64,000 nucleotides of DNA, taken from positions 16,207,025 through 16,271,024 of the forward strand of contig NC_060108.1 of the NCBI RefSeq assembly GCF_021155765.1, given 5' to 3'. Shown in pieces: positions 11,129 through 18,120 of this stretch (position 1 is the stretch's first letter; the number at the start of each line of letters is the position of its first letter). This stretch comes from Diprion similis (Eukaryota > Arthropoda > Insecta > Hymenoptera > Diprionidae). The position numbers were made by a program, and so were the translations under genes. The notes beneath the pieces were generated by a model. The model was not told where the DNA came from. It made no database searches and saw nothing but the letters and a program-made list of their open reading frames with translations.

Positions 11129-14100
11129 ATGAACACAGTAATGACAGCTAAAGAGATTCGTCAGGCTTTTATAGATTTTTTCAAATCGAAAAATCATGAA
11201 TATATTCACTCCAGCGCAACGATACCTCATGACGATCCAACATTATTGTTTGCCAATGCCGGGATGAATCAGGTAAAATGAATTTTTCTCACACTTACTA
11301 ATGGATGTGAAGAATGTATGATATAATTTTTAAATTCTATCAACGTCATTTTGTATTTGATTGCTAATTTCAAATAAAATTTAAGCACTCAAACTCAACT
11401 CTCCTACGTAATAAAATCGTAATTACATTTTCTTTCTTTAGTTCAAGCCGATATTTCTTGGCACTGTTGATCCTAATAGCGATATGGCTAAATGGGTCCG
11501 TGTGGTGAATACACAAAAATGTATTAGGGCCGGAGGTAAACACAATGACTTGGACGATGTCGGAAAAGACGTATATCATCATACTTTCTTTGAAATGATG
11601 GGAAACTGGTCTTTTGGTGATTATTTCAAGGTAAGACTTTCTCCAAAGTTCAGTGACGCTTGGTACCGAGCATTTCATGCATGTAGTTCTCAGTAAAATG
11701 GTGCTTTTAACCATTAACAGAAAGAGATTTGTGCCTGGGCTTGGGAACTACTTACAGAGGTTTTCAACTTGCCTAGCGATCGCTTATATGTTACTTATTT
11801 TGGCGGCGATGAGCAGTCTGGGCTTAAGCCTGACGAAGAATGTAAACAGATCTGGCTCTCACTTGGGTAACTAAATTGAAACACTTTGATTATTTACATG
11901 TATTTTATCCAATTACCAAACACTCAGAAAGAAGTATTGTATCAGTTAAATCACACAGCATATACAATGAATTTTTTTTGGAAACATCAGCAGATGAAAA
12001 ACTAATTTAAATCTTGTACATCAGATAACCTTATTTCGATTCAAGAAATCATTTACTCACAAATATTCAGGGTTCCACCTTCACATGTTCTACCTGGCAA
12101 TATGAAGGACAATTTTTGGGAAATGGGAGAGACTGGGCCTTGCGGTCCGTGCAGTGAGTTACACTTCGATCGTATCGGCGGTCGGGAAGTTCCTCATCTC
12201 GTCAATATGGATGATCCAGATGTTTTGGAAATATGGAATCTTGTCTTTATACAATTCAATAGGTAAACTGTCTAAAGGATCATGCAAATACGTCGTCTAA
12301 TCATCACATGACTAGAATGACTGTATGTACATACGTTTCAGAGAGTCGGACAGTAGCCTTCGTCCCTTACCTAAAAAACACATAGATTGTGGACTTGGTC
12401 TGGAGCGTCTTGTTTCTGTGATTCAAGGGAAGAGAGCTAATTACGATACTGACTTGTTCATGCCGCTCTTTGACATGATTCAAAAGGGAACTGGAGCTCG
12501 TGATTATCAGGGTAAAGTAGGCAGTGAGGATACAGATGGCATCGATATGGCTTACAGAGTATTAGCAGATCACGCCAGAACTATTACAATTGCCTTGGCG
12601 GATGGCGGCATGCCTGACAATACGGGCAGAGGGTAGATCAAATATATACTAAATAATATAACCAACCAAAATCACAAATAATTAATGGCCTGTATTATGC
12701 TGTTCCGTATGCAGATATGTATTGAGAAGAATTCTTAGACGAGCTGTTCGATATGCAACTGAAAAGCTAAATGCTAAACCTGGTTTCTTTGGTTCTTTGG
12801 TGAATACTGTCGTTGATCTGCTTGGTAAATTTGATTGAGTGTAATAGCTATCTATTAGTAGCTGAAAGTATTCGTTTAGAGCTCATTGACTACTTTCACG
12901 TTGTATTATTGTAGGTGACGTATTTCCGGAAGTTAAAAAGGACCCCCAATCAATAATTGATGTGATCAACGAGGAAGAGCAACAATTTCTAAAAACTTTA
13001 TCCAGAGGAAGAAATCTGCTAAACAGAACAATGGCAAAACTCGAAGCTACCAACGTTGTTCCAGGTGACGTTGCCTGGCGTCTTTATGATACTTATGGAT
13101 TTCCAGTTGACTTGACGCAGCTTATGACAGAGGAAAAAGGCCTGACTATAGATATGAAGGGCTACGAAGAAGCCAAGAAGCAAGCACAGGCAAATGAAAA
13201 TTATAATTTTAGTAACTGTACCGATTGTGAATATATTCTAGCTTCCCTATCCAGACATAAAATGTAATTATTAAATCACCATTAATTTGTAGCTGCTGTC
13301 TCAAGGCAAAGCTGGAGGAGTAGACGATCAAATCAATCTGGATGTCCATGCTATCACAGAATTACAAAATCAAGGGGTAAAGCCAACCAATGATAGCCAC
13401 AAGTATAACTACAAAGCAAAATCTTCTGACAAAAATTCTGAATATGAGTTTGCGCCATGTATTGGTACAGTAATTGCGCTCCGATTTGCCAAAAAGTTTG
13501 CTGAGCAAGTGACTTCAGGTCAAGAAGTTGGAGTTCTGCTTGATCAGACCAACTTCTATGCTGAACAAGGTGGACAAATATACGATGAAGGATTTTTAGT
13601 AAAAGTCGGAGATGAGGTGGGGATGATTCGATAAATAGCTAAACATTTGCTTGCTGTGACTAGGAAAACCTTTTAAACATAATTAAATGTCATGCAGAGT
13701 ACTGAAGTCTGCATAAAAAATGTCCAAGTTAGAGGTGGCTATGTTCTGCACATTGGTACTGTGGGTGAAGGCATCCTGAAGAAGGGTGATAAAGTCAACT
13801 TGAATGTTGACACGGCCAGGAGGAGATTGATTATGAGTAATCACACTGGAACTCATGTACTTAACTATGCCCTCCGTACCGTCTTAGGATGGGAAGCTGA
13901 TCAAAAAGGATCTCTCGTAGCACCAGATAGATTACGCTTTGATTTTACCAACAAAGGCGAGTAGAATTTCACTTTGTACTTTTTCTGAATTTAAGTTAAC
14001 AGTACATATGATAATAACGTGTAAACATTAGGTGCTATGACTGTCGAGCAAGTTAAACAAACGGAGATCAACACAAAGCAGCTGATTCAACGCAATGACC

Positions 14101-15926
14101 CAATCTATGCAAAGGAAAGTGGTTTGGCAATTGCAAAAACTATTCAAGGACTACGTGCTATGTTTGAAGAGACATATCCTGATCCTGTCAGAATTATCAG
14201 TATTGGAATACCTGTAGAAGAGTTGGAAAAAAATCCTCTAAGCAGTGCTGGTACTAAAACTAGTGTTGAATTCTGCGGAGGAACGTAGGTGTTCAGTTTA
14301 TTGAAAAAAATTTTAGCAGCCAAATATTTTTGTCAATGATTGAGTAAATTTGTTTTAGTCATTTACATCGTGCCGGACATATTGGTGACTTTGTAATCGC
14401 AAGTGAAGAAGCCATTGCTAAGGGAATTAGAAGAATTGTAGCTCTGACAGGCCCTGAAGCAACAAAAGCACTGAAGAAAGTTGAGCTCTTAGAAAATGAG
14501 TTGAAAAAAATAAAATCAATTGTTGAAGCAGATAAAACTGGAGCAAAATCTAAAGAGCATGTAAAAGCAATTGTTGATTTGACAGAAGATGTGTCACATG
14601 CGATTATTCCTTACTGGAAAAAGGTAGGTCTGTCAAACACCCATTTGATTGATTAATTCGGATTCAAAAATGTGATCATTTTCTCTAGGACGAGATGAGG
14701 AACACTTTAAAGACTCTCAAGAAATCCATCGATGATAAAGAACGTGCAGCCAAAGCTGCTGTAGCTAATTTAGTAGTTCAGAAAACTGCAGATCTCATTA
14801 AACAAAACGTTGGAATCCCTATTCTAGTTGAAGTATTGGAAGCTTACAGTAACACAAAAGCGCTCGACTCAGCTTTAAAACAAGTCAAAACTTTATCTCC
14901 AGAAACTAGTGCTCTTTTCTTCAGTGTGGACAATGATGCTAAAAAGATTTTTGCTCTAAGTGCTGTGCCAAAGGTAGGAAACTTTTTTCTTTACATTTTG
15001 GAAGGAAAAAAAACACTTCAATCATAAAATCATTACACTTAAAAACTAATTGCAATCCTCTATTTCTACAGTCTGCAGTAGCCAAAGGACTGAAAGCTAA
15101 TGAATGGATACAAGCAGTAGCTCCGTTAATGCAAGGAAAGGGCGGGGGCAAACCTGAGTCAGCTCAAGCTTCAGGCCCAAATTTGTCGTGTCTAAATAAA
15201 GCATTGGAAACTGCAAAGTCTTTTGCAAATTCGAAACTGGGCATCCCAACTAGCGGTACTGGGCCAATAAAAAAAGATACATTTATCAGTAATATCGAAG
15301 GACCAACACTTTATGCAAACAGTGGAAGTATTAAAAGCTACCGAGGTCAAATAGCTGCTAGATACAGTGGCAAAAAAATTACTGTTGAATCTGTCACGAC
15401 AAAAGATAAGGTTGATGTAGTTCTAAAAGATAATAGCGTAACTCTCCGAGATGCTAACGCAATTGCTTTGTATTTGTCGAATGATCAGTTAAAAGGTGCG
15501 AAGAATGTGTTTACTGAAAGTGAAGTGATCCAATGGATGAGCTACGCTGATAATCATATCTTGACAGCAGTATTGGGATGGGTTTTACCAAGTATCGATT
15601 CGTCTGTATCCGCGAATTCGAACAAGCTATCTAAGATTGCTCAAGAAGATTGTAAAAAAATGCTGAACAGTCTAAACATCATTCTGCAAACAAGGACGTA
15701 TTTAGTTGGGGAAAAAATTACATTGGCTGATATCGCAGTGTTTACATCATTTTTGCCACTCTATGAACACGTCTTTGATCCAGAGTCCAGAAAACCGTAT
15801 CAAAATGTCAACCGATGGTTTCTCACTATTTTACATCAACCTGAAGTACAAGAGATTATTAAAAGCTTCAAGATTTGTGATAAGGTCGTAAAGAAGCACG
15901 GTGATTCTAAAAAAAGAAATGATTAA
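11129..15926 (+). CDS. AARS1: Cytoplasmic alanyl-tRNA synthetase with C-terminal GST-like domain, 1195 aa
   Basis: Thirteen coding exons: 11129-11272, 11442-11630, 11721-11866, 12071-12262, 12342-12632, 12715-12824, 12915-13189, 13293-13616, 13698-13956, 14032-14284, 14359-14623, 14689-14973, 15072-15926. Phases agree throughout; product 1195 aa. It charges tRNA-Ala in the cytosol. Class II catalytic core and tRNA-recognition region fill the first half ([58 protein letters not shown]). The editing domain has H606-x3-H610 (NHTGTH) and C725-x3-H729 (CGGTH), and C-Ala with its GKGGGK motif ends near residue 967. The final exon then runs on into a GST-like domain (about 988-1180), giving some 225 residues beyond human AARS1 (968). 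Introns 13190-13292 and 13957-14031 use GC donors. The alternative, a misassembly joining two genes, is unlikely because the junction lies inside one open exon. Confidence 0.95.
15300..15890 (+). other. GST-like (eEF1B-gamma type) domain fused to AARS1
   Basis: Domain-level entry for residues ~988-1180 of the AARS1 product. An N-terminal thioredoxin-like half starts [20 protein letters not shown] and includes [16 protein letters not shown]. It is followed by an all-helical half with [26 protein letters not shown] and [14 protein letters not shown]. The TLAD motif (1128-1131) is the N-capping box typical of GST C-domains. The order and spacing closely follow the GST half of eEF1B-gamma (NAIAYYVSN, VQWVSFAD, TRTFLVGE, LADI, NRWFLT, QP). 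The eEF1B-gamma C-terminal domain is absent. The catalytic Tyr/Ser of active GSTs is not obvious, so a binding role is more likely. No intron interrupts this part. Confidence 0.88.
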
Positions 15927-16233
15927 AGTAAATTCAACATTTCATTTGAAACAGAGTTTTTGAATGTTTATTTTTCATACTGATCATTGAACGCTATTTA
16001 TTAAAGTTAGCTTTTATTTTTGTACTCAAGTATGGTACAAGCTTTCACCCAGAGTGGTTGATATTTCTTAGTGGACTCTAAACAGTCGTATTATGGAAAT
16101 ATATGTTATATTGTTGAAAAGACATTTCATCGGTGAGTAAGGATTACCGATAGTGCAATCTGATGAAATTTGTCAAAGAGTTGTGAACTTACAATAAAAT
16201 GTTTATTAAACACCATCCAACGTTACAAATTTT
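15927..16233. other. Convergent AARS1/MTG2 3' ends with paired poly(A) signals
   Basis: Plus-strand AATAAA at 16193-16198 (AARS1) and minus-strand AATAAA at 16207-16202 (MTG2) are separated by three bases. Cleavage 10-30 nt downstream of each would make the two mRNAs overlap antisense at their 3' ends. The MTG2 3' UTR would be only about 45 nt. Confidence 0.6.
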
Positions 16234-17931
16234 TTACACTATTTCATCTTCGTCTCGTTTATTTTTATCTTGTCCGTAAAAATCTTTCCCTAGTTCATTG
16301 TTGTATAACATCCTCATCTCTGCTACTAGTGTTGAGAGATTTTGACCCATTTTTGCGGATATTGGAACGATTTGAAGCTTAGTCTTTTCTTTAAGCACGT
16401 TTAGGTTTTCCTGCAATAACAGTCACATAAGTATACATGCAATAATTACTTATAAACAAAATATTATACATCAAACAAATGTCAGCTAATTAATGATGGG
16501 ATTACCCGAGCTTCAGGTAGATCCATTTTATTGGCTATGACAACCACTGGTCTATCAGCTAATTCCTTGCTAAACTGTCGAAGCTCATACTTTAAAAGTT
16601 CTAAATCTTCCCAAGGCTCTTCCACTGACATATCCAAAACAATCAATAAAGCTGCACATCGCTCAGCGTGTTTCAAAAACGTTATACCCAATCCTCTATT
16701 TTTATGCGAATCTGCTATGAGTCCTGGCAAGTCTGCGACTGTTGTTAAGAATTTTCTGTGTAAATTTATTGACACTCACGTTTTCTTAGAAATCAGAACA
16801 TCACATGGAAAGAATATTATTTACCAGCAACTTGTTCATAATCATTATACTGCACCATTCCGACATGGGGTTTCAATGTTGTAAACGGATAAGGCGCAAC
16901 TTTTGGTCTAGCTCTTGATATAGCACGAAGTAGTGTACTTTTTCCAGCATTTGGTAAGCCAATCTGAAGAACATTGAATTTTTTTGATTGAATTATATAT
17001 AATGAAATTCGTTATTGTTTACAGAAGTTTAGTTTACCAATCCGATATTGGCCATGCTTCTCAACTCTAGTAAATACTGAAAGCTTTCCCCCTTAGCTCC
17101 ATATTCACAAATCTTTGGTGATTGTTCAATGTCAGATTTAAAGAAAGCATTCCCATGCCCTCCTGCACCACCTCTAGCTGCTATAAACATCATTCCAACG
17201 TTGCCCAGATCGGCTACGATTTTTCCATCTAAAGAACGCACTATTGTTCCAATAGGAACCTTGATTACAAAATTGTCAGCGTTCTTGCCAAAACAGTCTT
17301 TGTTCTGTCCTTTCTCACCATGAGGCGCAGATACAATAGTTTTTACATGACTTAAGTTGTTCACATCTGTAGAAGCCTGAAAAGATATATATTTGCCTAG
17401 TGTCAAGAGATAAATCGACCAGACTGATAATTCGGTATTTGAAAAATTTGATCCTTTGTGAAATAAGAAAATTACTTGAAAAATAACGTGACCTCCGCTA
17501 CCTCCATCACCACCATCTGGCCCAGCAAATTCATTAGCCCAAAGACGCAAAAAAGAAATATTGCCATCTCCTCCGTTGCCAGCTATTACTGTGACCTATT
17601 TTGAGATACGACACAAAAATTGTACACATAAATTTAGACAAAGTTTCGGAAATTACAGCCTGGTAATGAAATTTGAATACACTTTACGTGCCTGTTTCAT
17701 GTCTATAAAATATTGACTTGTGGCCCCCTGTGCTTTGGGTTTTCTGTGTCTCAAAGCTACAGCAGGTTGGCCATTATACAGGCAGCTGGGACTATGAAAG
17801 GATCTGTTTGTAATCTCGTATGCAATGGAAGGATCAAGTATATGCACTGCCTGACAAGACGGTAGAATGTCTTGTATTCTGAGTATAGTCCGAAGCACGG
17901 AAGATGTTCCTAGCCTTCTTAGAGACTGCAT
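16234..17931 (-). CDS. MTG2: Mitochondrial Obg-family GTPase MTG2 (GTPBP5), 418 aa
   Basis: Six coding exons on the minus strand: 17931-17683, 17595-17476, 17376-17038, 16963-16825, 16738-16506, 16410-16234; product 418 aa (human 406). The N-terminus is basic and Ser-rich, as in a mitochondrial presequence. The glycine-rich Obg fold follows ([36 protein letters not shown]). The GTPase domain has G1 GLPNAGKS (238-245), G3 DLPG (285-288), G4 NKMD (352-355) and G5 SAK (378-380). The family acts in late assembly of the mitochondrial large ribosomal subunit. Exon 1 must end AAA|GTGTAT (17683) to keep phase; the stronger-looking GTAAAG donor five bases earlier would break the frame. The gene lies 190 bp downstream of the FDXACB1-like gene on the same strand and converges on AARS1. 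Confidence 0.93.
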
Positions 17932-18120
17932 GGTGTGTCGTTAACTGTAAGACCATAAATAGCAAACATGGTTGAAGAGGAAATCAATATTTTCAAAAAT
18001 AACGACTGTAAGATATGGAAAAGTTTATATTTATTCACCCCTTAATATTTGTTTTTTTTATCAATACTTCCAATCTTAACTGTATAACAAGCAATGTCGC
18101 AAACCCTAAAATCATTCGTA

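Follow-up and report, generated by a model that had tools for sequence, protein, structure and literature searches.

An alanyl-tRNA synthetase gene of Diprion similis with a C-terminal GST-like domain of the eEF1B-gamma type, and eEF1B-alpha-related exons in the ValRS and HisRS genes

The AARS1 gene and its last exon

The window, a stretch of 64,000 nucleotides from contig NC_060108.1 of Diprion similis, carries on its forward strand a gene for alanyl-tRNA synthetase (AlaRS), AARS1. We have modeled this gene by hand; the model has 13 exons between 11129 and 15926 with consistent phases and encodes 1195 amino acids. Exons 1-12 (11129..14973) encode the catalytic, tRNA-binding and editing domains and most of C-Ala. 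Along the protein, Pfam matches follow in the order tRNA-synt_2c (6.5e-221), tRNA_SAD (7.3e-12), DHHA1 (3.4e-14) and GST_C (1.8e-12, above the cut-off). The class II AlaRS core, the editing domain and C-Ala are all present, as judged by Pfam and, for C-Ala, by comparison with the AlaRS chain 5t5s, which we take to be human. The gene and its surroundings comprise the following features:

11129-11272, 11442-11630, 11721-11866, 12071-12262, 12342-12632, 12715-12824, 12915-13189, 13293-13616, 13698-13956, 14032-14284, 14359-14623 and 14689-14973, + strand: AARS1 exons 1-12 of the hand-made model
15072..15926, + strand: AARS1 exon 13 with the end of C-Ala, linker, GST-like domain and stop TAA; 285 codons including the stop, acceptor CTATTTCTACAG
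15072..15242, + strand: end of C-Ala, residues 912-968, closing with FANSKLG; phmmer match to residues 159-214 of 215 in 5t5s
15243..15305, + strand: linker of 21 codons, residues 969-989, the gap between the C-Ala and eEF1G matches
15306..15506, + strand: shortened thioredoxin-like half, from BLASTP against the D. similis eEF1G
15507..15923, + strand: all-helical C-terminal GST half of the eEF1B-gamma type with a lysine-rich tail, from the PDB match; Pfam GST_C at 15600-15842
16193..16198, + strand: AATAAA, a likely poly(A) signal behind the AARS1 stop, from the pattern alone

A preliminary description of this DNA had read 15072-15926 as one uninterrupted exon that starts with the end of C-Ala, followed by a linker of about 20 residues and a GST-like part. 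The 285-codon frame, the consistent gene model and the match to 5t5s bear this out, and the linker is accurate to within a residue or so. Exon 12 aligns to residues 63-156 of the cytoplasmic chain 5t5s and exon 13 takes up the alignment at 159-214; hence, the extra part begins right after C-Ala. AATAAA strings also occur within exon 13, at 15195 and 15266. A short gap past the AATAAA at 16193 separates AARS1 from a gene that reads as an Obg-like GTPase (16482-17940, - strand), so that the two lie tail to tail.

A profile search of the genome with PF01411 gave 13 scored matches (the best candidates), all of them in two genes, the one in the window and one on contig C7. From its sequence the C7 gene reads as the mitochondrial enzyme, and no GST was seen by eye in the stretch of it that was examined. 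AARS1 is therefore apparently the sole non-mitochondrial AlaRS of the genome among the PF01411 candidates scored. Two of the 12 AARS1 introns are of the GC-AG type (13190-13292, donor GCAAAT; 13957-14031, donor GCGAGT), and the frame requires both. A further GC-AG intron required by the frame lies in the region for the N-terminal domain of eEF1B-alpha (L045, donor GCAAGT). Such introns make up about 1% of animal introns, and the count here is higher.

Affinity, coding character and origin of the GST-like domain

In the PDB, the extra part is matched best by eEF1G (5dqs_A, 1.4e-34) over residues 116-273 of the query P0001, among the best 60 of 106 matches at E<=1. Within the same best 60 of 106 there follow C-Ala, for the other part of the query, eEF1G 1nhy (5.2e-11), the putative GST 5f8b (6.2e-11) and AIMP3 (7.9e-7), while GluProRS (1.3e-4) and other GSTs (at least 2e-4) match more weakly; we take 1nhy to be the yeast eEF1G and 5f8b to be a Coccidioides protein. 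When P0001 was searched against the D. similis genome (269 Mb, 60 contigs), two places were found, AARS1 itself and the eEF1G gene on contig C12 (54% identity over 85 residues). Conversely, the D. similis eEF1G as query found the AlaRS domain with 43% identity over query residues 1-213 and no third eEF1G-like copy in the genome; its next match, on C7 at 0.036, is a GluRS gene by reading. An assignment to the eEF1B-gamma type, already proposed in the preliminary description, thus holds up: among the best 60 of 106 PDB matches, eEF1G is nearer to the domain in sequence than any other GST-fold protein, and eEF1G is the only other place found for it in the genome. The EF1G C-terminal domain (PF00647) has two genomic matches, both at the eEF1G gene on C12, and therefore a separate eEF1G gene exists beside the fusion. 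Near the window there is no PF00647 match, and AARS1 does not have the full eEF1B-gamma architecture.

The two halves of the domain are unequally conserved. A BLASTP alignment with the D. similis eEF1G gives 38% identity over 221 columns with 20 gap positions, 15 of which fall near 15393-15434, where the AlaRS domain lacks about 15 residues relative to eEF1G. We take this shortened stretch to be the alpha2/cis-proline stretch. The start of the thioredoxin-like half matches 5dqs_A at 3.2 bits only. With these residues missing and so low a match, the complete GST-like fold of the preliminary description finds no support. The ESNAIAYY of eEF1G, which we take to be a glutathione-site motif, reads DANAIALY in the AlaRS domain. 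The helical C-terminal half is well kept and retains TLAD and RTYLVGE. A catalytic GST is marked by a complete thioredoxin-like half, the cis-proline and the E-S glutathione motif; the AlaRS domain lacks this set and is, by its sequence, probably non-catalytic rather than a working glutathione transferase.

Is the fused part a genuine coding sequence? We have simulated neutral drift of 200 codons of the D. similis eEF1G. At 41% identity, the value of the AlaRS domain to this eEF1G over 187 aligned residues, every one of 300 runs acquired a stop (6.5 on average), and at only 64% identity 295 of 300 still did. The codon-preference score was trained on eEF1G, an IleRS-like gene and the remaining AARS1 exons. 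For the GST part it amounts to +0.24 per codon in its reading frame and is negative in the other five frames; two intron controls were negative in 12 of 12 frames. Exon 12 as a control reached +0.43, being itself part of the training set. Both the open frame and the codon usage of the GST part indicate coding sequence under selection. The fused part continues the AlaRS frame, has the look of coding sequence and differs from the eEF1G gene elsewhere in the genome. An eEF1G assembly error at the junction, raised beforehand as a way in which the fusion could fail, does not fit: the D. similis eEF1G lies on another contig, bears introns and is about 41% identical, and since a chimera would be near identical (the observed values are 41-43%), the domain is no misplaced piece of eEF1G and no misjoin is apparent.

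In the D. similis eEF1G gene, three introns interrupt the matching part and another lies just ahead of it, while the GST part of AARS1 has none. This intron pattern fits the capture of an intronless eEF1G 5' copy, as had been suggested in terms of retroposition, but does not prove it, since intron loss after a genomic duplication would give the same picture. The divergence is too deep to expect a target-site duplication or a poly(A) trace. In a tree of five of the six alignment rows (the D. similis GluRS row was left out), the AlaRS domain groups with the D. similis eEF1G, though not firmly (support 72/79, not starred). Its branch measures 1.27 changes per column, compared with 0.21 for the D. 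similis eEF1G, 0.26 for the human eEF1G and 1.05 and 1.37 for the fungal rows. The tree does not date the fusion: an alternative topology with the D. similis and human eEF1G as a clade has a p-AU of 0.133, so that a fusion predating the split of the two is not rejected. A likeness to human VARS1 had prompted the idea of an origin from the GST of the organism's own ValRS; this was rejected, since its own ValRS seems to be without a GST and contig C3, which carries the ValRS gene, has no GST_C match. A foreign or ancient ValRS source is possible. Searches for relatives of the domain in phage, viral and prokaryote DNA gave no match in phages, and none of the pattern stretches in viral contigs (3) and genome contigs (24) was confirmed.

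Modules related to the N-terminal domain of eEF1B-alpha in the genes for ValRS and HisRS

Two further synthetase genes of the genome carry an additional exon:

L034 7428-7763 (G000:C3:1903927-1904262): extra exon in the middle of the ValRS gene, 336 bases, phase 0 on both sides
L044 4815-5126 (G000:C8:8542814-8543125): extra exon of the HisRS gene, 312 bases, phase 0 on both sides; taken from 4818 in the alignment, PDB, Pfam, codon, drift and splice-frame analyses

The gene on C3 is in our reading that of ValRS, from its sequence and from its match to the ValRS chain 1gax, presumably of T. thermophilus. PF10458 had no match in the genome, and TIGR00422 matched C3 and other synthetases, all below its cut-off. 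By reading, this ValRS has no N-terminal GST and starts with a lysine-rich stretch; there are no GST_C matches on C3. The best PDB match of the extra exon is 5dqs_D (4.6e-10), followed by AIMP3 at 0.09, and the D. similis eEF1B-alpha is 55% identical to it over 51 residues. Its flanks match 1gax at 547-596 (28.4 bits) and, behind the insert, at 594-650 (3.1 bits only), which places the insert in a loop, with the trailing flank weak. Codon preference is +0.26 in the reading frame and +0.03 in the next best. Its acceptor, GTCACGTTAG preceded by an AT-rich stretch, appears weak, and skipping the exon also keeps the frame open. Drifted neutrally to 42% identity, 34 of 300 runs were free of stops, so that lack of stops is weak evidence at such a length.

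The ValRS exon as query led to two further places, one on C8 (39%, 1.6e-7) and the D. similis eEF1B-alpha on C2 (9.1e-4). The C8 place is a HisRS gene, in which the following exons match the HisRS chain 4g85 at 2.6e-70. Here the extra exon sits in the intron that splits the WHEP hairpin, the first half of which matches at 4.4 bits only. In the PDB it, too, is closest to 5dqs_D (3.7e-6; next 0.068), the D. similis eEF1B-alpha is 39% identical to it over 56 residues, and its Pfam score of 22.1 lies under the cut-off of 27. Codon preference is +0.21 in the reading frame and negative in the others. After neutral drift to 33%, which is further than its 39% identity, 16 of 300 runs were stop-free, again weak evidence at this length. 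Should the donor stay unused, the reading frame would end after 13 further codons, near an AATAAA, and the exon could thus be an alternative last exon; it may be skipped or terminal. The HisRS gene (L044 3827-3922, 5875-5952, 6118 on; G000:C8) apparently has two first exons by reading, a cytosolic one and one with a mitochondrial-type leader (MFRLTRNNVILAIRQCRS).

Judged by sequence, a symmetric exon that keeps the frame and encodes a relative of the eEF1B-alpha N-terminal domain (alpha-N) is present in the ValRS gene and in the HisRS gene. Both exons are closest to eEF1B-alpha among solved chains, and 15 columns are invariant among the four aligned alpha-N sequences. With three protein queries against the organism's own genome (E<=10), the module was found in three genes, eEF1B-alpha, ValRS and HisRS, with one further match in L060 (E 0.39). 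Other carriers such as CysRS gave no match in the three queries, a weak absence given that PF21972, with 6 matches, missed even the D. similis eEF1B-alpha. Of the components of the usual multi-synthetase complex, a GluRS gene with a GST and AIMP3 are also present in the genome by reading. A sigma-like GST of the genome is in keeping with an insect. Beside the AIMP3 gene, a tandem array whose repeat unit measures, by eye, about 312 bases is open over 273 codons (L051, G000:C2, 2288-3106 of the reverse complement). Unlike the AlaRS, ValRS and HisRS genes with their many introns, an intronless open frame of 1272 codons that reads like cytosolic IleRS (L035 2613-6428, G000:C1) is possibly a retrogene that replaced its parent.

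A possible eEF1B-centred group of synthetases

The AlaRS domain matches chain A of 5dqs and the ValRS and HisRS exons match chain D of the same crystal, and we infer that the modules may use the same contact. We propose, with a probability of about 0.55, that the cytosolic AlaRS has gained an eEF1B-gamma-type GST-like domain that docks an alpha-N partner, within an eEF1B-centred group of synthetases to which ValRS and HisRS would contribute their modules. The AlaRS domain would hold an alpha-N type partner as eEF1B-gamma does, be it eEF1B-alpha or the modules of ValRS and HisRS, and the latter would bind a gamma-type GST, either of eEF1G or of AlaRS. Partners may thus be eEF1B subunits or the synthetases themselves. 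The outcome would be a group of AlaRS, ValRS and HisRS that passes aminoacyl-tRNA to eEF1A near its exchange factor. The alanine, valine and histidine enzymes lie outside the usual multi-synthetase complex. A more far-reaching version, in which the gamma/alpha handshake is split over the synthetases (gamma-type GST on AlaRS, alpha-N on ValRS and HisRS) and these bind each other as well as eEF1B in a second complex, tied to eEF1A recycling and of an evolutionary origin separate from that of the vertebrate ValRS-eEF1H, is tentative. All genomic evidence for these proposals comes from the sequence of one genome.

Partner docking and dimerization had both been named as possible roles of the domain. 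Docking is favored by the presence of alpha-N-type exons in the genes for ValRS and HisRS. Alternatively, the domain might dimerize AlaRS or pair with eEF1G by the ordinary GST-GST face; the ValRS and HisRS exons would then serve to bind eEF1G alone and be unrelated to AlaRS. The loss of about 15 residues from the thioredoxin-like half, in a stretch that we take to feed the classic dimer face, weakens classical dimerization, and we regard this explanation as rather unlikely. It does have a precedent, in that eEF1G crystals are described as classic GST homodimers, and homo- and heterodimers of EEF1G and VARS1 are predicted, in the accessible part of a survey of human GST-fold proteins (PMC10452860). 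A passive leftover of the fusion, kept in frame as harmless or as stabilizing the C-terminus, would account for the partly lost fold and for a branch of 1.27 against 0.21 and 0.26 in the D. similis and human eEF1G (fungal rows 1.05 and 1.37). We hold it to be improbable: despite roughly one change per residue, neither a stop nor a frame shift has arisen, codon choice is that of coding sequence, and the C-terminal half retains TLAD and RTYLVGE. An artefact, be it a chimeric assembly or transcripts without the GST part (skipped, or ended ahead of it as the AATAAA strings at 15195 and 15266 might allow), is very improbable given the 41-43% identity to the sole eEF1G found in the genome, the one open frame shared with C-Ala and the AATAAA at 16193 behind the stop.

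For the docking reading, several known systems offer comparisons. No AlaRS with a GST was reported in the literature searched, a weak absence because most subscription papers lay outside the search. The earlier statement that none was known to have been described agrees with the accessible parts of the sources: the AARS Online domain table gives GST for CysRS, GluRS-E, MetRS and ValRS, with AlaRS and HisRS not there (PMC11580382), no AlaRS stands among the human GST-fold proteins (PMC10452860), and a review likewise has none (PMC4394549). As far as that review is accessible, the GST of vertebrate ValRS is required for binding EF1B-beta, and the GST-borne ValRS link to eEF1 is possibly restricted to deuterostomes, with which the D. 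similis ValRS without GST agrees (PMC4394549). Vertebrate ValRS-eEF1H is alike in that a synthetase bears an eEF1-type GST-like domain. However, the GST is N-terminal on ValRS there and C-terminal on AlaRS here, where ValRS has an alpha-N-type exon in mid-protein; the proposed group would thus involve other enzymes and other attachment points. The human CARS1 splice form contains an elongation factor-linked insert in a synthetase, presumably resembling EF-1 beta. That insert inhibits EEF1G, according to the accessible text of PMC9166799 (its reference 25). It shares the tie to EEF1G, but arises by alternative splicing in CARS1, whereas the exons described here are in ValRS and HisRS and known from the genes alone. 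The N-terminal GST-like domain of eEF1G is closest by sequence to the AlaRS domain (41%); here the EF1G C-terminal domain is absent and the thioredoxin-like half shortened. The GST-homology domains of MetRS, GluProRS, AIMP2 and AIMP3 are synthetase docking domains in the part of the review available (PMC4394549) and would resemble the AlaRS domain in docking, but their sequence match to it is much weaker (AIMP3 7.9e-7, GluProRS 1.3e-4). GST and eEF1B modules on synthetases are therefore of a known kind, while what looks new against these partly accessible sources is which enzymes carry them, where they sit and that both halves occur together.

How aminoacyl-tRNA passes from synthetases to eEF1A is a long-standing question. 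A synthetase-elongation factor assembly of AlaRS, ValRS and HisRS, at which the genes hint, would be unrecorded. If true, three synthetase genes bearing relatives of both halves of the eEF1B contact, in an organism with a ValRS that lacks the GST, would represent an independent solution to eEF1 coupling.
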